The notes beneath the pieces were generated by a model. The model did not search any database, was not told the origin of the DNA, and saw only the letters and a list, made by a program, of their open reading frames with translations. Positions 9,495 to 51,141 of a stretch of 51,141 nt of DNA are shown here, piece after piece; position 1 is the stretch's first letter, and each line of letters starts with the position of its first letter. The stretch comes from a virus. The stretch spans positions 1 to 51,141 of IMG/VR virus record IMGVR_UViG_3300044799_000031, one strand, 5' to 3'. A program made the position numbers and the translations under genes.

Positions 9495-10016
9495 ATGAAA
9501 GAAGTTTCAATGGTCATAGTGGTCGACGAGGAAGAGACTCTAATCGACGATTTCATCGCTTACTACAAGAAACTTTTGATTAATCCGGATATTGAGAGGA
9601 TTGTGATTTGGAAACGCGGAGGAGAACTTCTGAAACAGTATGCTGATGTTACAGAGAAGTCCGATGTTGATTTGTGCACTGCTCGTAAAAGAGGTTTTGC
9701 TCTTGCGACCTCGTCTTACATTCTGAATGCTGATGTAGACACCAGACTTCCTCATCCATTTCTACCTTGGGCATCGATTAAGATGAAGACTGTGCCGGAT
9801 GTGGGCGTTGTCGCTCTAGACTATGATTATCCATTCACGCAAGGCCATCTGGCGTTTGGAGCAAGTTTATTTAAGACCGAGTTGCTTAAGCACTACTATG
9901 ATAGGCCAGAAGGCGGTTGTGAGTGCATCAACATGTGGAATAAAGTTAGAAACGCAGGTTTCAAGATTATTGGTTTACCGATGTTTGCCATTCACAAGAA
10001 GGAGGTTATTAATTGA
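9495..10016 (+). CDS. Small GT-A glycosyltransferase-like protein, 173 aa
   Basis: The N-terminal strand (VSMVIVVDEEETLIDDF), an ARKRGFALATSSYILNADVD segment with D80-V-D82 as the metal-binding DxD, and a later GCECINMWNKVRNAGFKI match the core of family 2 glycosyltransferases in short form. The family moves a sugar from a nucleotide-sugar to an acceptor. It is set between the tail-completion and tail-tube genes, so a tail protein may be the acceptor; a role on modified DNA bases cannot be excluded. It is shorter than typical members, with no membrane segment. Confidence 0.65.
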   Translation: MKEVSMVIVVDEEETLIDDFIAYYKKLLINPDIERIVIWKRGGELLKQYADVTEKSDVDLCTARKRGFALATSSYILNADVDTRLPHPFLPWASIKMKTVPDVGVVALDYDYPFTQGHLAFGASLFKTELLKHYYDRPEGGCECINMWNKVRNAGFKIIGLPMFAIHKKEVIN

Positions 10017-30045: not shown

Positions 30046-30085
30046 TTTAAATATTTGAAGGACCTTCTAGGCGTCAGGTGTTTGG
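30046..30085 (+). promoter_or_regulatory. Promoter with AGGTGTTTGG leader (nrdD)
   Basis: TTTAAATA at 30046-30053 and GGTGTTTGG at 30077-30085, 31 bases start to start. The GGTG serves as SD for the TTG at 30087; GTG at 30078 is the in-frame alternative. Confidence 0.65.
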
Positions 30086-30086
30086 T

Positions 30087-32000
30087 TTGAAGAAGGACGA
30101 ACTATTCTTCAGGAACATTCTTCAAGCGATGGACCCTGACTTTTCTGATTATATGTTTGGGAAGGACTACAAACTTCTAGAAGTCGATGGCATAACGAAG
30201 ATTAATCCCTTCAAATTTAGGAAGGACTATTGGAGTATGCCGTCCGATCAAGTAACCATCAATCCAAATGCGAATCTCGGGAATACTGGGGACCGTAAAA
30301 ACTTTTGTAATCTCATCAGCGAAGTCTCTGCTCCTGTCAATAAATTATCGGCGTTGATGCTTATACGAAAATATGGTAACAGGAGAGGCAACAATCATGA
30401 TGGCGATGATCTTGTCGAGAATATTGTCAATGGCGCTTTGTACCATCATAATCTCACCCTCTACGATCTTCCGTACTGTATTGGTCTTTCCCTCTATCCT
30501 ATCATTAGCGAAGGTCTCTGTCTCGGCGGTCTCCTGAGCAACCCTCCTCATCGGCCAACCAGTTTTGTTAATATAGCGGTTAGATTCGTGCAGTATGCTT
30601 CAAACCATTTTGCTGGAGCGACGGCCATTACCGATTTTTTTCTCCATTATTCGTACTACACTTCTCAGAGGAAGGACTACAGCGATAAGAAACGGGAAAA
30701 CGATCTTCAAAATCTTATTCATGGATTTACCGATGAGGTGAGACTTTCTGGTCAGAGCCCGTTCACCAATCTTTCTCTTCTAAGTCCGGAGACGATGCGG
30801 AGTATGATGGGGAACTACCTTTGGGGTCTAGACACAAAGGTCTCTGATCTCATGGACGAGATTATGCATAATCAACTCATATACGCTAAATTCTTCAGTC
30901 AAGGCCAATTGGGTCCGGACAGGAAACCAACGGGTCTGCCTTACCGCTTTCCCATCACTACCTTGGTTGCTGATCCTTCCTTTGAGAAGGAGTATCCTGA
31001 AGTCTGGAATCAGATCCTTGAATCAAACATCAATCTCTGCTACCTAAACATTCTGAATAACATGCAGACAGATCTTAAGAGTCTATCCATGTGCTGCCGA
31101 CTGACTCAAAACATTGAGGACCTTCTTAAATTGAATGTAAACAACACCTTTGGTTCGTACCTCTCAATCGGTTCACACGCCGTTGTATCTTTGAATCTTC
31201 CTCGGATCGCTCATGAAACAAAGGACGAAGATAAATTTATGGAGATCCTCGTGGAACGATGCGAAATGGCGCGCAAACTCCTTCTCATACATAGAGAGGA
31301 AATTCTCCAGAATAGAAGACTCAAATACCATTGGTTCTTCAAGACGAAGAAACTCGATCTCAAAGCCAATTTCTTCTCTACTATAGGGTTCATTGGCTTG
31401 GCGAATGCTCTAGAAATTCTGGGAATGAGAGTTACAGAGGTGTCCGGAGGCCTTAAATTTGCCAAGAAGGTTCTTCAAGTCCTTAAAAACAAGTCCGTGG
31501 AGTATTCTCGGGAAGATGGTTACATGTACAACATCGAGGAGGTTCCAGCGGAAGGCGCCTCTGGTGTGTTGGCGCTCAAGGACAAAATGCTTTATAATGG
31601 GACGCATGATTATTATGACAATCAGTTTGTTCCTCTCTCATACGACATCAGTTTGTTGGACAGGATACTCATTGAGGGAGAACTACAGTCCTACTGTACC
31701 GGAGGTTCTATTGCTCATCTCAACGTCGACTCTATGATGGAGGCCAGATCCGGCGTGGACTTTACGGAGAGACTCCTCAAGATAAGTAAGTTGGTTCACT
31801 TCGCCCTGAACAAGGGTTTCACAGTATGCAGTAGCGGTCATGTTGTCCAGGGCATCTATCAGAAGTGCAAAGAATGCGGTAGCGAAGACGTGGATCACGT
31901 CACCCGGATAGTTGGTTACTTCGCTCCAACCAGTTCTTGGAACCGAGCAAAGCAAGCGGAGTTTAAAACCCGAACATGGATGAAATTCACTCATGTCTAA
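30087..32000 (+). CDS. nrdD: Anaerobic (class III) ribonucleoside-triphosphate reductase, about 637 aa
   Basis: Diagnostic pieces are present in order: QSPFTNLSL, the active-site SMCCRL, FGSYLSIGSHAVVSLNLPRI, NIEEVPAEGA, YDNQFVPLSY, then a C-terminal zinc site (Cys-x2-G-H and CKECG) and the glycyl-radical loop RIVGYF with the Gly 27 residues before the end. It makes dNTPs from NTPs without oxygen. The N-terminal ATP-cone is missing, so dATP feedback may be absent, as in T4. No NrdG activase is seen in this genome, so the host must supply one. Its end overlaps the methyltransferase gene by 8 bases. Confidence 0.92.
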   Translation: MKKDELFFRNILQAMDPDFSDYMFGKDYKLLEVDGITKINPFKFRKDYWSMPSDQVTINPNANLGNTGDRKNFCNLISEVSAPVNKLSALMLIRKYGNRRGNNHDGDDLVENIVNGALYHHNLTLYDLPYCIGLSLYPIISEGLCLGGLLSNPPHRPTSFVNIAVRFVQYASNHFAGATAITDFFLHYSYYTSQRKDYSDKKRENDLQNLIHGFTDEVRLSGQSPFTNLSLLSPETMRSMMGNYLWGLDTKVSDLMDEIMHNQLIYAKFFSQGQLGPDRKPTGLPYRFPITTLVADPSFEKEYPEVWNQILESNINLCYLNILNNMQTDLKSLSMCCRLTQNIEDLLKLNVNNTFGSYLSIGSHAVVSLNLPRIAHETKDEDKFMEILVERCEMARKLLLIHREEILQNRRLKYHWFFKTKKLDLKANFFSTIGFIGLANALEILGMRVTEVSGGLKFAKKVLQVLKNKSVEYSREDGYMYNIEEVPAEGASGVLALKDKMLYNGTHDYYDNQFVPLSYDISLLDRILIEGELQSYCTGGSIAHLNVDSMMEARSGVDFTERLLKISKLVHFALNKGFTVCSSGHVVQGIYQKCKECGSEDVDHVTRIVGYFAPTSSWNRAKQAEFKTRTWMKFTHV

Positions 32001-32550
32001 ACGACCATTTACAGAATGCTCGAACAAGCGGAAGGATCTCGACGACTTGTACATTACTCCGGAGTCCTGCATCCTGCCTCTCCTCAAGATAGAGAAGTTT
32101 GAAGGCAAAGGATGGGAACCGGCCTCGGGAACCGGTGCTATAGCGAAACACTTTCCAGGGATTATGGCATCCGACATAAAGACCGATGATTTTGTCTATG
32201 GTTATAAGGGCATAGACTTTCTCTGGAAGGTTCATACTCCTAGAGAGGAAGTCGACTTCATAGTTACGAACCCTCCTTTCAAATTGGCTCTAGCCTTTTT
32301 GAAACAGAGTCTCGCTTTTTCTCGGTTCAAGGTCGCCTTGTTCCTGAGGATCCAGTTTATGACCGGGAAAGAGAGAGTCGAGTTTCTCCGGAAGAACCCT
32401 CCTATCAGAATCCATGTCTTTGTCGGCCGTCCTTCCTGTCTAAATCTGGAAGGCAAGACTCTTGGGACGGGCATGAATTTTGCGTGGTTCATCTGGGAGA
32501 AAGGGTTCAAGGGAAAACCGACAATCGATTGGCTCGACGAGGAAGTTTAA
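31993..32550 (+). CDS. N6-adenine-type DNA methyltransferase (NPPF), 185 aa
   Basis: WEPASGTGAIAKHF is a motif I (AdoMet binding) and DFIVTNPPFKLALAFL is the catalytic NPPF motif of amino-methyltransferases acting on adenine N6 (or less often cytosine N4). The protein is small, with no separate target-recognition domain, as in several phage Dam-like enzymes. No restriction partner is near, so it likely protects viral DNA from host enzymes or marks it. Overlaps nrdD by 8 bases. Confidence 0.8.
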   Translation: MSKRPFTECSNKRKDLDDLYITPESCILPLLKIEKFEGKGWEPASGTGAIAKHFPGIMASDIKTDDFVYGYKGIDFLWKVHTPREEVDFIVTNPPFKLALAFLKQSLAFSRFKVALFLRIQFMTGKERVEFLRKNPPIRIHVFVGRPSCLNLEGKTLGTGMNFAWFIWEKGFKGKPTIDWLDEEV

Positions 32551-32578: not shown

Positions 32579-32619
32579 TTTATAAGCGGAGTATAGGGTT
32601 ATAGAGTATGGGTGTTTGG
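32579..32619 (+). promoter_or_regulatory. Promoter with GGTGTTTGG leader (topoisomerase-like gene)
   Basis: TTTATAAG at 32579-32586, GCGGAGTATAGGGTT, then GGTGTTTGG at 32611-32619. The spacing is 32 bases. Nearly a copy of the promoter at 15597. Confidence 0.65.
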
Positions 32620-32622
32620 AAG

Positions 32623-34224
32623 ATGCAAGAGAAAATATTTAAGGTTGAAGGTTCTGACAAGAGGAAGCAATTTGCCGAGGAAGAATTGGATGAGGCCCAG
32701 AAGGCACATGGTTCCGATGTGGAGTACTTCTCACCGGAAACAGGATTTGCTCTCTTGAGCAAGGACGCTCCAATCAAATACCACATGTCGTTTGTCCGGC
32801 GTGCTTTATCCGCTGCTAGACTCAGTCTCAAGACTCCTCTCGAACTGAGGGAGTTTTACTATGCTATGCGCCAGAATCCGGATCTGGTCAAACCATTTGA
32901 CACGGGCAATCCCGACACAATCTATCCGAACGTGTTGAGGTCCATTATGGACGTTGAGATTTTATGTGATGTGGACCGCGACGTCTTCACGATTGGGAAC
33001 CTAAGCAAAGGTTTTATTTACTATTATCATTCGCCAGTCTTTGGCCAGAAGGAGCGCAAGATCGCCTTTACCGAGGTCATCGCCAGAACAATTATGTCTC
33101 CGGAGAAAGAAGAGGAATGGCAATGTGGCAACTGCGAGAACATCATTGTCGTGGAGAAGAACGCGGCGGCAACGAGGATGGTTGAACTCGGCATCTCAGA
33201 ATTTACTAACAGCATTATAGTCACGGTCGGTGGAAACTTTAGTCGAGCAATCTGGGAACTGACGGATCGTTTCAAAGACAAGAAGAACATGATATTCATG
33301 GCGGATGCTGATGCCTATGGCGTGGACATGCTTCGCACGATAAGGGTGGGCACCGAGTCGAGTAGACATCTACCGTACAAGTTCCCTCCCGAGATCTTCC
33401 CTAAGATATTCTTGGCCGGACTTTATCCTTCCATTGGTGAGGATTTAAATCTGCCGAACGATGTCGAGCAGAAGAGGCCACTTCAAAATCCCTTTGTTCA
33501 GCAAAGAATTGCTTTCTTGAGAAAATATGGTTTACTCAACGCGAAGGACGAGCAAACATGGAAGAATGACAAGACATACGAGTTGGAAGCCCTATCAACC
33601 TCGTTCACAGATGAGGCAGGTAAACCAATTGGCCTAGGCATCTATATCGTTGAGTATATGCGCTTGCACAACATACCTGTCAAGCCGCCAATCCCTCCGG
33701 ATGATGAATTGGAAAAAGAATTTCATGACGCCGCTATTGCAGAACTTAGGAGAGAAATTGATGAGAAGGTTACTTATCCGAAATTCTTCTGGGATCTTTA
33801 TCACCTGTTCACAGAGAAGAAGGAGGAACTAATCGGGGAGATTCTGGAGAAACTTCTTCCCGCCTACGAGAAATGTTTGGAGAGAGTAACCGCTAAGGAG
33901 ATCAAATTTCATATATACAAGCAATTCGAAGCGGATCCTAAACGAAGTACTTACGACTTAGCCGCGATCGCTCATAAACTTAAGACTAAATTTGACGTAA
34001 TAATAGATTGGGCAATGCAGGCGTTCGAGATAGCGATGGATGAAGCACTAATCGAGTATGATAAACCGTCCGCCAATACTGATGAAGTGGAGTTTACTCC
34101 AATTCATAATGAGACCAACTATGATCCGAATGGGTACGACCTCATACTCAAGAGGATGGGTGCCAAAGACGAGGACGTTGCTAGAGTGAGAGAAGCCCTC
34201 AAGAATCGGTTCGGGATGGAGTAA
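32623..34224 (+). CDS. Stand-alone DNA topoisomerase VI A / Spo11-like protein, 533 aa
   Basis: Counting from the ATG at 32608, residues 80-88 (LREFYYAMR) hold the Tyr pair of the 5Y-CAP winged helix, and the Toprim domain follows with VVEKNAAATR (Glu183), IIVTVGGNFS and FMADADAYGVDML (Asp233, Asp235) and a GTESS. These are the parts needed to cut DNA with a 5' Tyr link. A CGNC pair is inserted before the Toprim. The last 200 residues are a helical extension of unknown function. No B subunit is in this genome, so it resembles the Mini-A group of mobile elements. ATG at 32623 fits the SD in the leader. Confidence 0.85.
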   Translation: MQEKIFKVEGSDKRKQFAEEELDEAQKAHGSDVEYFSPETGFALLSKDAPIKYHMSFVRRALSAARLSLKTPLELREFYYAMRQNPDLVKPFDTGNPDTIYPNVLRSIMDVEILCDVDRDVFTIGNLSKGFIYYYHSPVFGQKERKIAFTEVIARTIMSPEKEEEWQCGNCENIIVVEKNAAATRMVELGISEFTNSIIVTVGGNFSRAIWELTDRFKDKKNMIFMADADAYGVDMLRTIRVGTESSRHLPYKFPPEIFPKIFLAGLYPSIGEDLNLPNDVEQKRPLQNPFVQQRIAFLRKYGLLNAKDEQTWKNDKTYELEALSTSFTDEAGKPIGLGIYIVEYMRLHNIPVKPPIPPDDELEKEFHDAAIAELRREIDEKVTYPKFFWDLYHLFTEKKEELIGEILEKLLPAYEKCLERVTAKEIKFHIYKQFEADPKRSTYDLAAIAHKLKTKFDVIIDWAMQAFEIAMDEALIEYDKPSANTDEVEFTPIHNETNYDPNGYDLILKRMGAKDEDVARVREALKNRFGME

Positions 34225-35164: not shown

Positions 35165-35381
35165 GGTAGCAAGTTCATATCTGATTAAAATTCGCGGTCT
35201 ATTAGCGGATCTTGCGTCCGATCTTGAGAGTTTGTTGGAGGATCTCTATTCCGATGCCTTTGACGATGGAAGAAAAGAAGGATTAGACGAGGGAAAGGAT
35301 ATAGGTCACAAAGAGGGTTACGACGAAGGTTACGAGAAAGGATTTAATGAAGGTGAGAAGGATGCTGGGTCCGGACAATAA
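35157..35381 (+). CDS. Small acidic repeat protein, 74 aa
   Basis: After a helical first part (IRGLLADLASDLESLLEDLY) comes a Gly/Glu/Lys-rich tract of repeated three-to-four residue units (DEGKDIGHKEGYDEGYEKG). Such tracts form a glycine-spaced helix. ATG at 35157 has GGAGAG upstream; ATG at 35142 is in frame too. Its end overlaps the methyltransferase gene start. Function unknown. Confidence 0.45.
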   Translation: MGKVASSYLIKIRGLLADLASDLESLLEDLYSDAFDDGRKEGLDEGKDIGHKEGYDEGYEKGFNEGEKDAGSGQ

Positions 35382-36096
35382 AACTCAACTCGATATTGAA
35401 AAAGCCACTGAACGCGGTTTGATTCACAGAGATTACATCGCCCACTGTCTTCGTTGGAATCATGTGCTTAAATTCGCTAGAAGAGGAGACTCAATTCTCG
35501 ATTTAGGTTGCGGCGACGGTATGCTCGCTCAAATTCTCTTTGTTAATAAGTTTCGACCCAAACAATACGTAGGTCTTGATGTCCGTAAGACCGCCATTGA
35601 GAAACTGATGTCTAGGAAAGTGAACTTTCCGGTTACAGGTATAGTCAACGACATCAGGATTGGAAGCATTGGTGATGCCGCATCAGACTTTTTGGAGAAG
35701 TTTGATGTCGTAGTTTGCTTTGAAATAATCGAACATTTTGAAGACAAATATCTCGATCATGTGCTTCAAGAGATTTATAGGGTTCTGAAACCTTCCGGTT
35801 ATCTTCTATTATCAACACCAAACTATGATGGAGTACATAAGGCGCGGAATCACGTTCACGAATATTATGAGGTAGAGTTGGGGATGCATCTTGAGAAGGT
35901 CTTTTCCAGCATTTGGAAGATTGGCACCTTTGCTTCTCAGAAGGATATTCTGTCAGTTTTGACATGGTCGGAACGAGAACTCTTTGACAATCTTTCTAAA
36001 TGGTTTGACTCCAACGTCTTAAGCGTGATCTTCGCCAGTCTTCATCCTAGTCAGAGCAGGAACATTCTCTGGGTTTGCCGCAAGGAAGGGCAATGA
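35362..36096 (+). CDS. Class I AdoMet-dependent methyltransferase (UbiG/Methyltransf_11 type), 244 aa
   Basis: Motif I is ILDLGCGDGMLAQIL, followed by YVGLDVRKTAIEKL (motif II), VVCFEIIEHFEDKY (motif IV region) and VLKPSGYLLLSTPNYDG. This is a small-molecule or protein type of methyltransferase, with none of the DNA methylase motifs (no PPC, no NPPY). Its substrate is unknown; since the next gene is a DNA methyltransferase, a role in base or nucleotide modification may be considered. ATG at 35362 has GGTGA upstream; 35347 is the alternative. Confidence 0.75.
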   Translation: MLGPDNKTQLDIEKATERGLIHRDYIAHCLRWNHVLKFARRGDSILDLGCGDGMLAQILFVNKFRPKQYVGLDVRKTAIEKLMSRKVNFPVTGIVNDIRIGSIGDAASDFLEKFDVVVCFEIIEHFEDKYLDHVLQEIYRVLKPSGYLLLSTPNYDGVHKARNHVHEYYEVELGMHLEKVFSSIWKIGTFASQKDILSVLTWSERELFDNLSKWFDSNVLSVIFASLHPSQSRNILWVCRKEGQ

Positions 36097-36099
36097 TTT

Positions 36100-37530
36100 A
36101 TGAGTAAGACAGATTTAAAACCAATAACTATCGGTTTCGTGTATGGAGTGGCTGGGCATTGGGCTGTCTCCTCTAAGAAGAATGACTTAAAGATGGTATG
36201 GCATCATGAACCCGATAAGAATCTCAATGATATTTTTAAAGTCAATTTTCCTTGTGTCTTCTCAAGTAGATCAGATGAGGAATTATATTCGAGAGAAATT
36301 CCCGATATCGTTGTTGGAAGTCCTCCATGTTCAGCCTTTGCCTGCATGCTTGGAAGCATTCGAGGCGGTTACCAAGCCGAATTGATGGAAGAATTTGCTT
36401 CTCACGTTCTTGAATTTGGAAAAATCATAAACAGGATTCAACCTAAAATATTTATTTTTGAGAATGTAACCGGTTTATTTAATCAAGGAAAATTATTTTA
36501 CACATTTCTGTCTTCGGTAAAGAAGAATTATCAAGTCAACTTCCTAGTCTTAGATTCTGCCGACTACGGTGCCGCTCAACATCGAGTGAGGATTTTTGTC
36601 TTTGGCACTCGGAGTGATATTTCTCCCGAATTCATGTTCATTCCAAGTGAACACTTTCAAAAGAGTCTCATTTTGAGAGATGTTATAAAAGGATTGGAGA
36701 ATTTATCCCGTTTATGCGTAGAGGATCACGACTGGTATCAAGGTACACAGAAGATTTTTGGTACTTTTAGTCGAAAAGGTGTTCAATTTTCTTATTCTTG
36801 GGATTCCCCCCCCTCGACATGTATAACCACTAATGCTTATGGCAATTTACATCCGGACAAGACAAGGTGCATCTCCGTTTTAGAATTGAAAAGAATCATT
36901 GGTCTTCCAGACAACTTTAATTTAGGAGATTTTTCAGTTCAAAAGAAAGTTAGGATTTTAGCATTTGGAGTTGACGTCAGATTATGTTCTTTGCTGTTAA
37001 AAAATGTGAAACAATTTCTGAGAAGAGACGTTAGAGTAAAAAAAGGCTGTTTCTACCTTCCTCGGCCGAGTATGACCCACTACAAAGGTAGTTTTCCTCT
37101 CAATTTAGAGTCTATGCTACTTAAATTTTTAAACATCCAAAAGGAAGTTTTAATTTTACAACCATTTGGAGGTCGAAGTGCTTTAGGTCTTCGTTTAGAT
37201 GTGAAAAGAGAAGTGCAACCTGATGTCATTGGTGACGCACATTATCTTCCTTTTCGAGAAGGAATTTTTGACCTCATTCTTGCTGATCCTCCTTATTCAA
37301 ACGCCGAATCAGTAAACTTGTACCAGACAAAGAAAATTTCTTTTCGTGTTTATAGCAAGGAATTGGTTCGAACCATTAAATTGAATGGTCTAATCTGTTT
37401 TTATCATAAAATTTTACTTCCAACGCCGGATGGATGCATTAAACATGCCATAATAACAGTCGTGACAAGAACTTTTCATCATGCGCGAATTATAACGGTC
37501 ATTAAGAAAATTCAAGGCGGAGGGGTTTAA
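36100..37530 (+). CDS. C5-cytosine DNA methyltransferase fused to a DPPY methyltransferase-like domain, 476 aa
   Basis: Residues 1-305 form a C5 methyltransferase: FVYGVAGHW (I), GSPPCSAF with PPC at 75-77 (IV), FENVTG at 120-125 (VI), QHRVRIFVFG at 160-169 (VIII), and FGVDVRLCSLLLKNV at the end (X). It transfers methyl from AdoMet to cytosine C5. Residues about 325-476 form a second domain with LILQPFGGRSALGLRLDV as a degenerate motif I and ILADPPYSN (DPPY at 396-399), the motif of N4-cytosine/N6-adenine enzymes. The gene is distinctly A/T-rich against its neighbours, which suggests acquisition. A truncated relative lies at 28999. Confidence 0.88.
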   Translation: MSKTDLKPITIGFVYGVAGHWAVSSKKNDLKMVWHHEPDKNLNDIFKVNFPCVFSSRSDEELYSREIPDIVVGSPPCSAFACMLGSIRGGYQAELMEEFASHVLEFGKIINRIQPKIFIFENVTGLFNQGKLFYTFLSSVKKNYQVNFLVLDSADYGAAQHRVRIFVFGTRSDISPEFMFIPSEHFQKSLILRDVIKGLENLSRLCVEDHDWYQGTQKIFGTFSRKGVQFSYSWDSPPSTCITTNAYGNLHPDKTRCISVLELKRIIGLPDNFNLGDFSVQKKVRILAFGVDVRLCSLLLKNVKQFLRRDVRVKKGCFYLPRPSMTHYKGSFPLNLESMLLKFLNIQKEVLILQPFGGRSALGLRLDVKREVQPDVIGDAHYLPFREGIFDLILADPPYSNAESVNLYQTKKISFRVYSKELVRTIKLNGLICFYHKILLPTPDGCIKHAIITVVTRTFHHARIITVIKKIQGGGV

Positions 37531-37533
37531 TTA

Positions 37534-38157
37534 GTGTGTGTTCCCTGTCCTTTGTTGGATTTTTTCGATAAGAAAAGTTGGTACGCCAGACACTGGGAGA
37601 ATGTTGAGAGATGCCAACTCTGCGAGATTAGGAAGACAGGTCAACATCAATGCCCCGGTCTGGGTTATCCGAATAGTGCCATCATGTTTGTTGGAGAGGC
37701 GCCTGGCGCTGTTGACAATCCCGAATTAAGGAATCTAGTCTTTGTCGGCAATAAGTCCAGTGACCTAATGCTTGATATAATTTATGATTTGTGGCCGAAT
37801 GGTTACGATGACGTCTACCTCACCAATGTTGTGAAGTGCAATCCTCCTGGGAACAGGCAACCCACCGAGAACGAAGTTGAGTGCTGTTCGAAGTTTCTCA
37901 GAGAAGAAATTAGGATGGTGAATCCCATCTTCATTGTTGCTTTAGGGAGGACGGCGGCTAACTGGTTTGGTGTCACATCCAATCTTAATGAAGCAAGATT
38001 GACGCCTCACTTATGGGAGTCGAGACGCCTCTTCGTTCTCTATCATCCGGCTTACGTGCTGAGACTCGGTCCCAAGGCGGTCAGTCAATTTCGTGGCCAG
38101 ATGAAGGTCATTAGAAATCATCTCATCGATTTAGAGATTAGGTGTGAAGAAAAATGA
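37534..38157 (+). CDS. Uracil-DNA glycosylase, family 4, 207 aa
   Basis: GEAPGAVD (about 54-61) is the water-activating motif and HPAYVLR (171-177) the second motif of family 4. C27-x2-C30, Cys102 and Cys117 (or 118) match the four iron-sulphur cluster ligands. LTNVVKCNPPGNRQP is the hallmark around the third Cys. It removes uracil from DNA. It overlaps the kinase gene by ATGA. GTG start at 37534. Placement inside a cytosine-modification block suggests it clears deaminated cytosine. Confidence 0.9.
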   Translation: MCVPCPLLDFFDKKSWYARHWENVERCQLCEIRKTGQHQCPGLGYPNSAIMFVGEAPGAVDNPELRNLVFVGNKSSDLMLDIIYDLWPNGYDDVYLTNVVKCNPPGNRQPTENEVECCSKFLREEIRMVNPIFIVALGRTAANWFGVTSNLNEARLTPHLWESRRLFVLYHPAYVLRLGPKAVSQFRGQMKVIRNHLIDLEIRCEEK

Positions 38158-38741
38158 AAGGAAAACTAATCATAGTTGAAGGCGTCGACGGTTCCGGGAA
38201 GACCACTCTGATTGAAGGTCTGAAAACCCGCATGCAGGTCGACCACGTCTTCAACTATTCCTATCCGAAGGAAACGACTCCAGAGGAAAATGTGTCCTTT
38301 GCTCGAGGAGAATACCTTGCCTCCATTAAAATCTTTAAGGCACTCGTTGGCGATGGAAAAACTATTATATGCGACAGATTTCATCTTGGAGAGTATGCTT
38401 ATGGACCAATTATGCGAGGGTATTCCGAATTTCTAGCCGAAAGCATCCTTAACATCGAAGGAGAGATTAATGAGATTAAGAAAGTTGGTGAAGTTTATTT
38501 GGTCATTTTAGTAGTTTATGAACCAAAGATTCTCATGGGTCGTCTTCAGAAGAAAAAATTAAAGATGAGTGGAGAGTATCTGAGGACATCATCTCAATTA
38601 TCTTTTGTTAATGCTCGATATCGAAACGTCCCAACTAAATTGAATGCGATTGGATTCTTCACCGACTCAGCCATTTATGAAAACCATCCGGAGAGGATTC
38701 TTGATCAAACTGTAAAATTTATGATGGAGACTTTAATTTGA
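38154..38741 (+). CDS. Thymidylate kinase-like dNMP kinase, 195 aa
   Basis: P-loop EGVDGSGKTT (9-18), then a DRFHLGEYAYG segment (the DRx motif of TMK/dNK proteins) and a LID-like region with KKKLKMSGEYLRT. It should phosphorylate a deoxynucleoside monophosphate. Its substrate need not be dTMP: it overlaps the ThyA-family gene that looks dCMP-specific, so it might phosphorylate 5-substituted dCMP, as T4 gp1 does. That is inference from context. Confidence 0.8.
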   Translation: MKGKLIIVEGVDGSGKTTLIEGLKTRMQVDHVFNYSYPKETTPEENVSFARGEYLASIKIFKALVGDGKTIICDRFHLGEYAYGPIMRGYSEFLAESILNIEGEINEIKKVGEVYLVILVVYEPKILMGRLQKKKLKMSGEYLRTSSQLSFVNARYRNVPTKLNAIGFFTDSAIYENHPERILDQTVKFMMETLI

Positions 38742-39766
38742 AAGTCTTTGATGGCGAATCAATTCCACGAATGTATCCTGAAATCCTCCAATTTATAGTA
38801 GACCAAGGGCATGAAGTTGGACCCCGTGGTTTAATGACTAAAGAGATTTCGCCCGTAACCTTGATTAGTCATAATCCGAGAAAGAGGTTGTTCGGTCACC
38901 CTTGGCGGAACGAGGTGAGCATCTTCACCTATATTGAAGGTCTATGGATTCTTAGAGGGGAGGATACCCCAGACAGAGTTGTTTCCTATGTCAAAGGCAT
39001 GAAAGATTTTATTAATGCTACAACAGGCAAATTTGATGGTGCTTATGGACCTCAAATAAGACGTCTTGTCCGGTCATACATACACGGAGAAGGAGGTATT
39101 GATCAATTAGTCTATGCCTATTATACTCTTCTGGGTGATCCCGAGTCCCGTCAGGCCGTTGTAATTATTAATGATCCTCACGTTCACAAGATTCCTTCCA
39201 AGGATTTTCCGTGCACCTTATCATTTCAATTCCTCGTTCGTCAAGGAAAATTGAATATGATTGTGCATATGAGGAGTCAAGATGCATGGTTGGGTCTGGT
39301 CTACGATACCGGAGAGTTTCAGTGGATCCAAGAAATTCTTGCCGGTTGGTTGAACCTCGATGTCGGCGACTATACGCATGTCGTTGCCAGTCTGCACTTG
39401 TATGAAAGGGACGAAGAAAAAGCGTTGAAGGTCATTGAACACAATCGTGGTTGGGATCTGTACAAGGATGCTAAGATTCTTGACGCCCGGTTAGAAAAGT
39501 CCAAGTACGGCGAGACTGAAAAGGTGCTGGCCATCTTTGAAGAAACAGTGCGTTCCGGTGGGACTCTGGCAAAGGAGGTTTCTTCGATTCTTCTTGGCTT
39601 TAACGATTTCTATTCCAATTTAATCAACATCATTATGGCATACAATCTCCGTCTAAAAGGAGCGGACGATGCCGCTCTTATGATGGTTGAACATAATCCT
39701 ACTGATCTCGGTCTAATCTATAAAAGGAGGTGGTTAAATGGAAAAGAAGGTAATGGCGAGAAGTAA
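38738..39766 (+). CDS. ThyA-family enzyme, probable dCMP hydroxymethylase or methylase, 342 aa
   Basis: The ThyA core is clear: IEGLWILRG with the catalytic Glu, FPCTLSFQFLVRQGKL with Cys159, HMRSQDAWLGLVYD, and SLHLYERD. The spacings Cys159-Arg179 (20), Arg179-Asp190 (11) and Asp190-His220 (30) equal those of E. coli ThyA Cys146-Arg166-Asn177-His207, so Asp190 replaces Asn177. That residue chooses dUMP (Asn) or dCMP (Asp); dCMP hydroxymethylases carry Asp. No Trp is found where ThyA has Trp80. I therefore predict C5 hydroxymethylation or methylation of dCMP. TTG start overlapping the kinase TGA. The length exceeds ThyA (264) mainly at the C-terminus. Confidence 0.8.
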   Translation: MKVFDGESIPRMYPEILQFIVDQGHEVGPRGLMTKEISPVTLISHNPRKRLFGHPWRNEVSIFTYIEGLWILRGEDTPDRVVSYVKGMKDFINATTGKFDGAYGPQIRRLVRSYIHGEGGIDQLVYAYYTLLGDPESRQAVVIINDPHVHKIPSKDFPCTLSFQFLVRQGKLNMIVHMRSQDAWLGLVYDTGEFQWIQEILAGWLNLDVGDYTHVVASLHLYERDEEKALKVIEHNRGWDLYKDAKILDARLEKSKYGETEKVLAIFEETVRSGGTLAKEVSSILLGFNDFYSNLINIIMAYNLRLKGADDAALMMVEHNPTDLGLIYKRRWLNGKEGNGEK

Positions 39767-40112
39767 CGTCATTCGTGGGATGTTGAGGCCGATCGTGCTG
39801 GGGGAATTAGCGAAGGGACCTCTTCATGGTTACTTGCTCATTAAGAGGATTCGAGAGAAGTTCCATGTTTATCTTGGTCCAAGCACTATGTATCCTGCCT
39901 TATATGACTTGAAGGAAGCGGGTTTAATTGAATTTGACAAGTCGTGCACTCTCTTCGGGAAAGGAATATCCTTAAATCTCGATTCCGGGAGACCTATCAA
40001 GGTCTATGCTATAACTGAGAAAGGAAGAACCGCCCTTGCTCTGGATCTTCAAAATCTAAAGAACATTACTCACAATCTGGGAATAGGCATCAACGATGCT
40101 AACGGACAATGA
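39738..40112 (+). CDS. PadR-family winged-helix regulator, 124 aa
   Basis: MLRPIVLGELAKGPLHGYLL, STMYPALYDLKEAGLIEF and IKVYAITEKGRTAL are the PadR signature: a winged helix that binds operator DNA. PadR proteins are usually repressors that respond to small ligands. AGGAGGTGG before the ATG is an almost ideal SD. It overlaps the 3' end of the ThyA-family gene and the next gene. It might control the modification block or the terminase operon that begins just downstream. Confidence 0.8.
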   Translation: MEKKVMARSNVIRGMLRPIVLGELAKGPLHGYLLIKRIREKFHVYLGPSTMYPALYDLKEAGLIEFDKSCTLFGKGISLNLDSGRPIKVYAITEKGRTALALDLQNLKNITHNLGIGINDANGQ

Positions 40113-40512
40113 AATAAAGCAACTGATAGCAGAGAAGAAATTGGATATTGAACCGTACGATCCCGATAGACTTGGACCTGTCAGTTATGATCTGACGACT
40201 CACGCGTTTGGGAGCATCAATGACGTACGTCAATTGACGACTGCTGAAGTCATAACGATGCCTCGGGACTTAGTTGGGATCCTGACCCCTCGAAGTCGCT
40301 TAGCGGTTAGGGGACTGTTTGCCAGTTTCAGTCTTCTTGTGGACCCAGGTTTCAAAGGCCATTTGATCTTCCTCGTTTTCAGACCCGGGCAATTGACAGA
40401 GGACTACAACGTTTCTGATCTCTTTCAAATAATGTTTATGAAGATTGGGTCCGTGGGTACAAGTTATGATGAGAGACCTTCGAGTACCGCTATGGGGAGA
40501 AACGGATTCTAA
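40096..40512 (+). CDS. dCTP deaminase/dUTPase-fold protein lacking the deaminase Glu, 138 aa
   Basis: The fold is given by MLTDNEIKQLIAEKKLDIEP at the start, TPRSRLAVRGL, and LLVDPGFKGHLIFLVF followed by DLFQIMF, as in Dcd. Aligned to E. coli Dcd, RSRLAVRGL replaces RSSLARLGL, so Ser111 is kept but Arg115 is Val. The catalytic Glu138 falls on Leu (LIFLVF against IVLEFY). The Asp of VDPGF remains. It is also short (138 against about 190). It is probably not a deaminase; it may be a dUTPase-like or regulatory protein. Its TAA overlaps the terminase ATG. Confidence 0.75.
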   Translation: MLTDNEIKQLIAEKKLDIEPYDPDRLGPVSYDLTTHAFGSINDVRQLTTAEVITMPRDLVGILTPRSRLAVRGLFASFSLLVDPGFKGHLIFLVFRPGQLTEDYNVSDLFQIMFMKIGSVGTSYDERPSSTAMGRNGF

Positions 40513-47866: not shown

Positions 47867-48203
47867 TAGGCGCCCGGGTTACACGATTCAATTTCACCCG
47901 TCTCGTTTTAATAAACCTCTAAGTTGTCGTTCAGGAATACATGAGCATCCTACAACAACCATCATTAATGGAATACCGTGCCTCTATTGTCTCGACTGCG
48001 GCGAACACATTGGGAAAGGTATTTGGGAGCGGACTTGGTCTAAAGGCGACATGGAGAAGTTGAGTACTCTTCAAGAAAGAAAACCCAGGACCAAAGAAGA
48101 AATAATGAGACAAATATGGGAAAGAAACCAGAAGAATAGGGATAAGAGTCTAAGCGAGTTCGTCCAGTTCAGGATGGAGTCCGGCATTGAAGGGCGTCGA
48201 TGA
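47826..48203 (+). CDS. Zinc-binding hypothetical protein, 125 aa
   Basis: PLSCRSGIHEHPTT and GIPCLYCLDCGEHIG provide a Cys/His set for one zinc site; the C-terminal half is a charged helix. TTG start at 47826 with GGAGG upstream. Its end overlaps the ligase start by 17 bases, so the two are coupled. Function unknown. Confidence 0.55.
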   Translation: MDNQIRKALQLTNDRRPGYTIQFHPSRFNKPLSCRSGIHEHPTTTIINGIPCLYCLDCGEHIGKGIWERTWSKGDMEKLSTLQERKPRTKEEIMRQIWERNQKNRDKSLSEFVQFRMESGIEGRR

Positions 48204-51141
48204 ACTATCAACTAAGGCACTTCATTTTCAAATAGCCAAGTTGAGAGTATTATTCAATCAGACTCCAGATTCTATTATTCGTGAAGGTATCATTAAACGT
48301 TATGGAATTGTTAGGAACCAGATTAAAAAGAGAGAAATTCCTTGGACATGGAATTATCACATTCTCGACGATTTAATCGTGAAAGGACCGGGAAGTTTCA
48401 TTAAACCGAATAAACCGGCGTGGAGAATATTCGACGCTAAAGAGGTTTTTGACATACCTGAATTCAGTCTACCTTCCAGAGTGGATATCAAAATTGATGG
48501 TATGAGGATCCAGATCCATTATGCCAATGGAGTCAAGTTTCTCTCAGAGGACGAAGGTCTAGATAAAACCGAGAAGTTTAAGATGGCGGCAAAGGAAGTC
48601 GAACAACTTCCGAAAGGAACCGTCCTCGACTCTGAAGGAGTCATTGTCGACAAAGGCGAGGTTCTTCATCGAACAACTTTTATAGGATACGCTAATGGTG
48701 AAGGATACGACGAGAATCTCGACTCTAAAGCAGAATTCTGGGTATTTGACATTCTCTTCTATCAGGGTAAGGATCTACGCAATCTTCCTTACTCTGAGCG
48801 TCTAACTTATCTAGACAAGATTAAAACCTCTGAGCATCTTAGGCCATTTCAAACCGGAAAGGAGTCCTTTACATGTCGAACTAGAGAAGAGATTTTGGCC
48901 GCCGTGAAGAAAGTAAGCGACATGAAAGGTTCCGAGGGCGCCATGATCAAGTTCTTGAATGGGACTTACGTTGAAGGAGTGCACAATAAGACATGGGTCA
49001 AGATCAAGAATCTTAAAGAGATCGACTGTATGGTGGTCGAGATTGAGCAACCTAAACATCAAAAGGGTCCTCTGGAGGGGAAACCAATTGAAGGCGTCTA
49101 CAACTACCATATTGCCGCGGGACCTTACGACGACAAATGCGCGTCCTTTTTGAAGGAGAAGGATCCCAAGAAAATTAGAGAGGTTAATGGCAAGACCTAT
49201 GCTTATCTGGGTAAAACCTTCAACACAAGTATTGCCGTCAAGGTTGGGAACATAATCAGGATCTGGACGCCTGAAGTTAATCGTTATCCGATAGAGGATT
49301 CTGGTTGCTCTACTTTTGGCGTGTATGAACCTAAGGTCCTCGAACACGTGGCAGAGAGGAATATACCGGACTCAATGAATGTGCTTATGAGGTTGAGTGC
49401 TGAGACCGTGCCACGACAACTTGGGAAGCAGGAGAGCAATTCGATGTACCTCCCCCGACATTCCTGCATGATGGTTTGGTCGGGTATTAAGACTCAGATT
49501 GTCAAAGAAAAACCCTTTGAAGGTATGCTAAACAAGGAACTCTATCTGTGTGATGACCACTATTTCTATGGTGAGATAGAGTTAACATCGATGAAGAAAG
49601 TTACTCGGAAGGAAGTTGAACAAGACATTCACCTTAATCGTATCTTCGGCGAAGACTGGGAGGACTGGAAAGGAGCACGAGAGTTTTACTCCTATGAATT
49701 TACGTTTGAGGCGGTTTTTGAACCTCAAGTCGTTGACGTGCCTAAAGGCGCTCAGACGTTCTTCTCCTTAGATCCGGAGACCGTACTCAGAATTGAAAGG
49801 GTCCGGACTAGCGCCGACTTCATAGGTTTGCTTCGGAAGGTTTCTAAGGACTATAAATTCGTTCTTCATCGCCACTATGGATCAGACTTAAACACCCACT
49901 TCGACCTAAGATGGATGTTTGATTCAACTCACAAGGAGGAGTTTAATCTATATGGCGATCCTCGGACCATGGATGTCGGGAGTAGCATTGACGCCCGGAG
50001 AAAGAGTTTCACAGAGTCGCCTGAATCTCTCGCATTATGGATGGTTACTGAAGGGGAACATTTAGAACGTCATGTAAGAGGAGTTGATACTCCTACCTAT
50101 ATTGACGTTATAGATTCCGGGACCTTGAAGATTCTATTGGAAAATGATTTGAATATTGAGTTAGAAATCGACGGTCGTAGTTTGAAAGGTTTCTTCCTCT
50201 ACTCAAAGGAACCGAAGGCCTCATTCAAGAAGGTCAGTTCATTTCTGGTCAAGGACGAGGAACACGGTCCTCCACTTTCTGAATACGAGGGTCTCGCTAA
50301 AGACGGTGAACCTCTTCCATCTAAATTTTACAAGTGGCAACCGGAATGTACGGACTGCAACTTTGTTCTTCAGAGGCATTATCCGACGGGACGAAAGGAA
50401 CCCATTAAACCGGGAGAAGAAGTTCCTCAGATGCATAAGGATCTAAATGACTCGGAGTTAGCCGACGTCTTTCTAGAGGGTTATGTTTCCAGTCGAATGG
50501 GGTGTCCACCGGCAAAGATGATCATGAATAAAGCGGAATCAAGTCCCGTATGGAACAAAACGATCAACATGATCATTCGGAAGATTAGAGATCATCTGGA
50601 TCTCAGGATGGAGATAGACAAGAAACTCATCGGAGTAACGATACATCCACCAGTCCCCGAAGGGATAACGGCATGGGAGAGTTTTCAAGGTAGAATGCAT
50701 GTTGGCGACAAGACCCAGGTGACTCCGAAGTTTGAACATCCAAAGGGTTGGCTTAACGAGGAAGGAGAACTAAGATTTCCAACAAGACATACCGGACCTG
50801 GGGAAGAGGTTCAGCAGGCACATTTTCTAGAAATTGCTCAGATACAGATTCTCGATAAAGGCCAAGTAAAATTTGGTGTGCAAAGAAAGGATCTTCACGA
50901 GTACTTCTTCTATGGAGAGAAGTTGAAAGGGAGATGGGTGCTTAGACGTCTAAAGATTGGTCTAGAGTTTCAGCACGACGCATGGTTGCTCATGAAACCA
51001 GAGGATCAGAAACCATTGGATCCCAGTTACCACAAGGACGAAGGGTACTGGAAAATCGACTTCATAGAGAAGGTTACGACGGAGGAACGTGCCCATATCG
51101 AGGAAGAGGTTCAACGTTCAAGGGAAGAGAGAGGCGGCGGT
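48187..51141 (+). CDS. ATP-dependent DNA ligase with two LigD phosphoesterase-like modules, 985 aa (runs off the window; stop at 128-130 on the circle)
   Basis: VDIKIDGMRI carries the adenylation Lys102 (KxDG). SEGVIVDK, FWVFDILFYQG, SEGAMIKF and TWVKIKN follow as ligase motifs III-V, and an OB-fold region (GKTFNTSIAVKVGNIIRIWT) ends near residue 370. Residues about 425-510 look PUA/ASCH-like (MVWSGIKTQIVKEK, GEIELTSM). Two LigD 3'-phosphoesterase-like modules come next: RHYGSDLNTHFDLRW (563-576) with LEIDGRSLKGFF, and FVLQRHYPTG (726-) with YGEKLKGRWVLRRL. They might clean 3' ends before sealing. TTG at 48187 has GGAG 9 bases upstream. The frame ends GERGGG-type just at base 127 and meets TAG. 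Confidence 0.85.
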   Translation, partial: MKGVDELSTKALHFQIAKLRVLFNQTPDSIIREGIIKRYGIVRNQIKKREIPWTWNYHILDDLIVKGPGSFIKPNKPAWRIFDAKEVFDIPEFSLPSRVDIKIDGMRIQIHYANGVKFLSEDEGLDKTEKFKMAAKEVEQLPKGTVLDSEGVIVDKGEVLHRTTFIGYANGEGYDENLDSKAEFWVFDILFYQGKDLRNLPYSERLTYLDKIKTSEHLRPFQTGKESFTCRTREEILAAVKKVSDMKGSEGAMIKFLNGTYVEGVHNKTWVKIKNLKEIDCMVVEIEQPKHQKGPLEGKPIEGVYNYHIAAGPYDDKCASFLKEKDPKKIREVNGKTYAYLGKTFNTSIAVKVGNIIRIWTPEVNRYPIEDSGCSTFGVYEPKVLEHVAERNIPDSMNVLMRLSAETVPRQLGKQESNSMYLPRHSCMMVWSGIKTQIVKEKPFEGMLNKELYLCDDHYFYGEIELTSMKKVTRKEVEQDIHLNRIFGEDWEDWKGAREFYSYEFTFEAVFEPQVVDVPKGAQTFFSLDPETVLRIERVRTSADFIGLLRKVSKDYKFVLHRHYGSDLNTHFDLRWMFDSTHKEEFNLYGDPRTMDVGSSIDARRKSFTESPESLALWMVTEGEHLERHVRGVDTPTYIDVIDSGTLKILLENDLNIELEIDGRSLKGFFLYSKEPKASFKKVSSFLVKDEEHGPPLSEYEGLAKDGEPLPSKFYKWQPECTDCNFVLQRHYPTGRKEPIKPGEEVPQMHKDLNDSELADVFLEGYVSSRMGCPPAKMIMNKAESSPVWNKTINMIIRKIRDHLDLRMEIDKKLIGVTIHPPVPEGITAWESFQGRMHVGDKTQVTPKFEHPKGWLNEEGELRFPTRHTGPGEEVQQAHFLEIAQIQILDKGQVKFGVQRKDLHEYFFYGEKLKGRWVLRRLKIGLEFQHDAWLLMKPEDQKPLDPSYHKDEGYWKIDFIEKVTTEERAHIEEEVQRSREERGGG
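51015..51141. repeat. Terminal direct repeat, copy 2
   Basis: Identical to bases 1-127. It codes for the last 42 or so residues of the ligase. See copy 1. Confidence 0.95.

Follow-up and report, generated by a model that had tools for sequence, protein, structure and literature searches.

A predicted dCMP 5-hydroxymethylase in a conserved operon of an uncultivated, probably archaeal, tailed virus

The window analysed here, the whole 51,141-nucleotide stretch of IMG/VR virus record IMGVR_UViG_3300044799_000031, encodes a protein of the thymidylate synthase (ThyA) fold that we assign, with a probability of roughly 0.87, as a dCMP 5-hydroxymethylase (hereafter HMase; Table 1). The assignment draws on its active-site residues, its predicted structure, its phylogeny and the operon in which it lies, and it indicates that the DNA of this virus probably contains disguised, that is modified, cytosines. 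A first-pass annotation had proposed a dCMP methylase or hydroxymethylase and had left the choice between 5-methylcytosine (5mC) and 5-hydroxymethylcytosine (5hmC) open; the proposal is supported, and the evidence leans to hydroxymethylation.

Table 1. Features of the window discussed in the text
Feature	Position	Strand	Basis or remark
Anaerobic ribonucleotide reductase NrdD	30078-32000		
Topoisomerase VI A-like protein (Toprim domain)	32608-34224		~70% identity among relatives; directly precedes the module in contigs that extend so far
SAM-dependent methyltransferase, HRDYxAHxxRW ... STPNYDG family	35347..36096	+	Pfam Methyltransf_23 1.1e-18
Accessory DNA methyltransferase: C5-cytosine methyltransferase (PPC, ENV, QHR motifs) and C-terminal DPPY-type amino-methyltransferase domain in one ORF	36100..37530	+	Pfam 3.4e-30; phrog_3816 on C-terminus
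Family-4-type uracil-DNA glycosylase (UDG) homologue, GEAPG and HPAY motifs, C27/C30/C102/C118	37534..38157	+	Pfam 4.2e-25, Arch_udg 2.4e-34
Thymidylate-kinase-like P-loop kinase, Walker A GVDGSGKTT	38154..38741	+	Pfam 2.8e-9; conserved upstream of HMase
Predicted dCMP 5-hydroxymethylase (ThyA fold), 342 aa, TTG start	38738..39766	+	Pfam, PDB, AlphaFold/Foldseek, tree
Codons Asp156-Thr160 including nucleophile Cys159; Asp156 = T4 Asp145, Thr160 = position of His147 in E. coli thymidylate synthase	39203..39217	+	alignments, MetaGPA
Asp190 codon = E. coli ThyA Asn177, T4 gp42 Asp179, MilA Asp186; predicted cytosine selector	39305..39307	+	alignments, PMC5175136, PMC6400193
PadR-type regulator, between HMase and Dcd-like, overlapping both	39738-40112		
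Dcd-like protein of the dCTP deaminase/dUTPase family	40096..40512	+	Pfam DCD 1.1e-15

Results

Active site and substrate

The first 4 bp of the HMase gene are shared with the kinase gene that precedes it, and the HMase product matches the Pfam thymidylate synthase model (Thymidylat_synt, PF00303) at 1.1e-21. Residues were numbered by alignment with E. coli ThyA, using a reference sequence in which positions C146, H147, R166, S167, N177, H207, Y209, W80 and W83 were verified. The residue spacings had been described as exactly those of ThyA, and they are: C159, R179-S180, D190, H220 and Y222 fall on C146, R166-S167, N177, H207 and Y209, with Asp190 in place of Asn177. The catalytic set of the fold is present (E67, R179, H220 and Y222, equivalent to Glu58, Arg166, His207 and Tyr209, together with C159), and since E67, Y103, R138 and D182 of the ThyA alignment are also kept, the active site is complete.

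Asp at the position of Asp190 is common to the cytosine-nucleotide enzymes MilA, BcmA and T4 gp42, whereas uracil users carry Asn (PMC5175136). In T4 gp42 the residue at the aligned site, Asp179, serves in cytosine recognition and protonation, and the D179N change cuts kcat by up to ~3600-fold (PMC6400193). In the MetaGPA study, ThyA positions 177 and 147 were the top two linked to contigs with modified cytosine, and at position 177 the modified contigs have mostly Asp (PMC8670742). These three reports bear out the earlier suggestion that an Asn-to-Asp change shifts the family towards dCMP and that T4-type dCMP hydroxymethylases carry Asp. At these two sites, Asp (177) and Thr (147) occur together in the window HMase, T4 gp42, phage G gp319, DSL-LC01, nattely, HTVC200P, Phendrix and ctUtU524, and Asn occurs at both in SPO1 gp29, EalM132, May and CRW-SP2, which either are dUMP hydroxymethylases, established or by annotation, or are closely related to them.

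D190, T160 and D156 are kept in all 10 relatives of 52-57% identity and in all 80 nearest IMG/VR homologues, collected with search patterns that excluded these three columns, though biased towards MRS-type enzymes. Since the three residues recur in all relatives, Asp190 is more than a chance substitution. The homologues in viral contigs were found with a four-row alignment; a single-sequence search of the viral contigs with the ThyA homologue gave no match. In two of the related records (L029 and L034) the HMase genes diverge sharply past about residue 70 while the flanking topoisomerase VI A-like and kinase genes are near-identical, a pattern that suggests recombination within the HMase gene.

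Predicted structure and phylogeny

The AlphaFold model of the HMase (pLDDT 90, pTM 0.91) has MilA as its best Foldseek match (2e-25, TM 0.80-0.87 over ~335 columns), ahead of thymidylate synthases (5e-16, TM ~0.55); likewise, the best PDB sequence match is MilA at 1.2e-29, against 1e-12 for thymidylate synthases. MilA (PDB 5jnh, 5b6d, 5jp9) matches over nearly the full length and has Asp186 at the Asp190 site, and as the closest solved structure in both sequence and fold it could speak for a CMP hydroxymethylase of the MilA/BcmA kind, with ribonucleotide substrates and serving a small molecule or RNA. However, Arg and Ser are marks of deoxy substrates, the ribose-type residues of MilA being Lys133 and Ala176 (PMC5175136), and in the PDB alignment the window HMase has Arg138 and Ser180 at these positions. 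Its operon, moreover, is DNA-related, and we regard an enzyme for ribonucleotides as extremely improbable. The residues thus support a cytosine nucleotide as the predicted substrate, with the deoxy form preferred.

In a tree of 54 rows made by a quick search, in which the inner branching, including that of the superclade, is weakly resolved and T4 gp42 has a long branch, the window HMase and ten relatives form a single clade (support 100). This clade is nested in a hydroxymethylase superclade (MilA/T4/SPO1; support 99) that includes T4 gp42 as well as the dUMP enzymes, and seven synthase-type rows stand apart (support 97-99). The phylogeny and the superposition proposed with the first annotation therefore place the protein with pyrimidine hydroxymethylases, and in the 54-row tree it was not found among dUMP-using synthases that carry Asp.

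An ordinary thymidylate synthase, or a dUMP hydroxymethylase, in which the Asn-to-Asp change is neutral has some points in its favour, as generic family models label the ORF a thymidylate synthase, a thymidylate-kinase-like gene is among its neighbours, and one synthase-type row outside the superclade, from phage Lynlen, has Asp too. Against it, all NCBIfam thymidylate synthase models score below cutoff, the best being TIGR03283 with 65 against 174.55 bits, which is also the one measure, by score and not residue by residue, by which methanogen-type archaeal synthases were compared. The separate clade, the presence of Asp in every relative, a Thr160 that is not the SPO1-type Asn, and a ThyX retained alongside an Asp-type gene in Stenotrophomonas phage AXL3 also argue against this reading, which we judge very improbable. 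A role in simply boosting thymidylate synthesis was rejected on the same sub-cutoff scores and tree placement.

Hydroxymethylation or methylation

A dCMP methylase of the Xp12 kind, forming 5-methyl-dCMP, has to be weighed as well, since Asp at position 177 alone turns a thymidylate synthase into a dCMP methylase according to work cited in PMC8670742, and PhiN is a known archaeal virus with methylated cytosines (PMC4284463). In T4 gp42, Asp145 is a polar active-site residue required for activity where the E. coli synthase has Leu143, and Val85 is found where the E. coli enzyme has Trp83, which screens the site from solvent (PMC6400193). The window HMase has Asp156 at the first of these positions and F91/I92 at the second. 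The first-pass annotation had drawn attention to a Trp-free W80 region; Trp is indeed lacking at both W80 and W83, but it is W83 that is informative, and a missing Trp80 was rejected as a diagnostic sign, because T4 gp42 keeps Trp82 there.

Stenotrophomonas phage DLP4 served as stand-in for the related 5mC phage Xp12, its own base being taken from this kinship. The DLP4 ThyA homologue has Asp at 177, but Pro after the Cys, Asn at the Asp145 site and a Trp around W80/W83, with a DHFR gene two genes away. All of these DLP4-type features other than Asp are absent from the window, whose HMase has Thr160 and Asp156 and clades with hydroxymethylases. A search of the record revealed no DHFR, ThyX, second ThyA or cytidine-deaminase-fold gene, a weak absence for a linear contig that may be incomplete. 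Because the cofactor ends as tetrahydrofolate in hydroxymethylation, this reaction has no need of DHFR. The T4-like Asp156, the lack of Trp at the W83 site, the superclade, the absence of DHFR and the contrast with DLP4 together favour hydroxymethylation over methylation for this enzyme, and a methylase is very improbable.

The operon and its relatives

In the window the genes follow the order methyltransferase, UDG, kinase, HMase, Dcd-like, and in about ten relatives the order topoisomerase VI A-like, methyltransferase, UDG, kinase, HMase, Dcd-like, TerL is kept. In a set of 11 related viral records, seven have both HMase and UDG and four have neither, two of the latter being contigs of 59 and 63 kb; the methyltransferase occurs in 6/7 HMase-bearing and 0/4 HMase-less relatives, and the kinase in 6/7 and 1/4. 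The window is one further record in which all four are present. Judging from gene content, the module is gained and lost within the lineage. The lineage can do without the HMase, as two close relatives lack the gene. These two (L013, 59 kb, and L021, 63 kb), close by TerL and RadA, also lack UDG and methyltransferase; L021 retains the kinase and the Dcd-like gene, so that the kinase also occurs outside the module.

The window UDG has the GEAPG and HPxYxLR motifs of family 4 and the four Fe-S cysteines, its Arch_udg match nevertheless being below the cutoff of that model, and its gene tracks the HMase among relatives. Of 87 loci, most have a homologue of the window kinase next to the HMase. In phage G, gp315 contains both domains in one protein (Pfam UDG 1.5e-12, thymidylate kinase 1.1e-6), and in many phages the C-terminal domain of a ~340-aa 'thymidylate kinase' belongs by profile match with the window UDG family (97.7%, 2.3e-12) and has a UDG fold, its best PDB matches being all UDG4/UdgX (2e-5); this fused domain is without GEAPG, with HPQYVRRF mostly kept. 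From such fusions, the two overlapping genes of the window can be seen as a pair that is fused elsewhere. In phages with an Asp-type ThyA, the proteins annotated as 'thymidylate kinase' (L002:1480-2472; kinase ORFs of L040-L104) are kinase-UDG fusions, the UDG often degenerate. The window kinase is a candidate 5hm-dCMP kinase or base kinase, and candidate roles for the kinase/UDG pair are uracil removal or, in hypermodification, the recognition or exchange of bases.

A coupled SAM methyltransferase

For METHYLTRANSFERASE (SAM methyltransferase family), the best PDB matches include UbiG/COQ3-type O-methyltransferases. Coupling was examined by searching with the methyltransferase family alone and scanning 79 loci for a ThyA homologue within 6 kb. 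One was present in 67 of them, on the same strand in 67/67; several pairs are separated by 4 bp, and all ThyA copies that were typed carry Asp. After clustering at 90% the coupling holds in 35/38 clusters, and the 12 uncoupled loci are mostly short or cut. The converse fails, as the methyltransferase was found at only 5/70 more distant HMase loci. The methyltransferase is thus a candidate tailoring enzyme and, by analogy, fits as one among several alternatives, the others including the glucosyltransferases of T4 and nattely and a carbamoyltransferase (PMC8670742). HMase analogues lie beside glucosyltransferases in nattely (beta-GT) and in phage G (gp313).

Four annotated phages have the methyltransferase (AXL3, PW916, ct3Et533 and ctUtU524), and an Asp-type HMase is nearby in 4/4. 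The AXL3 module reads methyltransferase, NTP-PPase, kinase, HMase, deaminase, and this phage has a separate ThyX-type gene (PMC7504290). Of 37 restriction enzymes, 35 fail to cut its DNA; the two that do, TasI and Tru1I, have A/T-only sites (PMC7504290). This resistance is independent experimental support for an association of such a module with genome-wide modification at G/C, of whatever chemistry. We found no earlier description of the methyltransferase and UDG-fold parts of the module.

Other genes of the window

The Dcd-like protein has Leu in place of the catalytic Glu (Glu138 of E. coli dCTP deaminase), as do five relatives by motif. A deaminase role was rejected on this loss, and the protein more likely hydrolyses nucleoside triphosphates, perhaps as a dCTPase/dUTPase that plays the part of T4 gp56. 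The PadR-type gene had no match in the relatives' loci searched (E 1e-4).

The C5-cytosine methyltransferase was not seen near L028-L030 or L034, and is thus not conserved with the module. Enzymes of this type require an unsubstituted C5. Its presence in the window makes complete cytosine replacement doubtful; replacement may be partial, or the enzyme may target other DNA. In L013 a C5-methyltransferase gene immediately precedes TerL. A further DNA-methyltransferase-like protein is encoded in the window at 31993-32550 (phrog_799, 8e-48). A small protein in the tail gene region (9495-10016) looks GT-A glycosyltransferase-like by eye and had no library match. At 48187-51141, an ATP-dependent DNA ligase domain is followed by ~700 residues, in part LigD 3'-phosphoesterase-like by eye, in a frame that runs to the contig end.

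Virus and host

The window encodes a terminase (TerL), a portal, an SU10-like major capsid protein and an HK97-type prohead protease, as expected of a tailed virus. The matches of its RadA-like protein are confined to haloarchaeal viruses (50,697 phage records), its PolB has many haloarchaeal virus matches, and the topoisomerase VI A-like protein had no match in annotated phages. With the Hef/XPF nuclease gene, these archaeal-type genes sustain the earlier proposal of an archaeal virus. NrdD suggests an anaerobic host, and by its gene content the virus probably infects an anaerobic archaeon; genome contigs searched with HMase and TerL gave no cellular relative.

Discussion

From the features above we infer the activity of the enzyme, the order of the steps and the modified base in virions as follows. 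Cys159 would attack C6 of dCMP, with Asp190 recognising and protonating the cytosine N3; the one-carbon unit would come from methylene-tetrahydrofolate or, depending on the host, methylene-tetrahydromethanopterin, and the methylene intermediate would be resolved by water, not hydride, giving 5hm-dCMP. The adjoining kinase would lift this product towards 5hm-dCTP, the Dcd-like hydrolase could remove dCTP/dUTP as competitors, and the modified base would be incorporated by the viral PolB. Within the module, a dCTPase is at most a possible role of the Dcd-like protein. The co-conserved methyltransferase and UDG-fold protein would probably work on the modified base or DNA, and the purpose of the pathway would be evasion of host restriction and other DNA-targeting defences.

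Since the methyltransferase is a conserved partner, the final base may be a further-modified 5hmC rather than plain 5hmC. A tentative and somewhat doubtful extension of this idea is that archaeal viruses and phages have in common an operon in which 5hmC made at the nucleotide level is methylated by the coupled SAM methyltransferase (e.g. to 5-methoxymethylcytosine or N4-methylated 5hmC), with the kinase/UDG-fold pair replacing the kinase/pyrophosphorylase pair of thymidine hypermodification. We found no paper on the methoxymethyl variant.

T4 gp42 resembles the window HMase in Asp at the 177 site, Thr after the Cys, the Asp145-type residue and the catalytic set, despite ~21% identity and a C-terminal extension in the window protein; T4 has a glucosyltransferase as partner, whereas by family match the window has none, and has the methyltransferase and UDG instead. 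Bacillus phage G gp319 and phrog_5131 show 36% identity near full length, the same Asp/Thr/Asp and kinase and UDG domains nearby, but the virus is a bacterial phage, kinase and UDG are fused, and a glucosyltransferase is annotated in the vicinity. The dUMP hydroxymethylases of SPO1 (gp29) and Ackermannviridae belong to the same superclade and have the D156-type residue, but Asn/Asn in contrast to the Asp/Thr of the window. AXL3 shares the methyltransferase family, the kinase and an Asp-type ThyA in an operon; it differs in its bacterial host, in having an NTP-PPase and a dCMP deaminase, and in an HMase that is 35% identical.

Haloarchaeal tailed viruses and halophage PhiN are likewise archaeal, with relatives of the window PolB and RadA, and base modification is known in them in the form of 7-deazaguanine and methylated cytosine (PMC8651126, PMC4284463). 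In contrast to the ThyA-fold hydroxymethylase of the window, ThyX is the viral thymidylate synthase reported for these viruses, and the survey of archaeal tailed viruses does not mention a hydroxymethylase (PMC8651126).

The new element is that pre-replicative cytosine hydroxymethylation, known from phages, would extend to a lineage of uncultivated archaeal tailed viruses, and that in many phages dCMP hydroxymethylases are linked to one family of SAM methyltransferases and to a pair formed by a kinase and a UDG-fold protein. As AXL3 has been isolated and shows an unexplained resistance across G/C-containing sites, the chemistry could be tested without culture of an archaeal host. For the archaeal tailed viruses themselves, the module predicts a way by which they may escape archaeal restriction.
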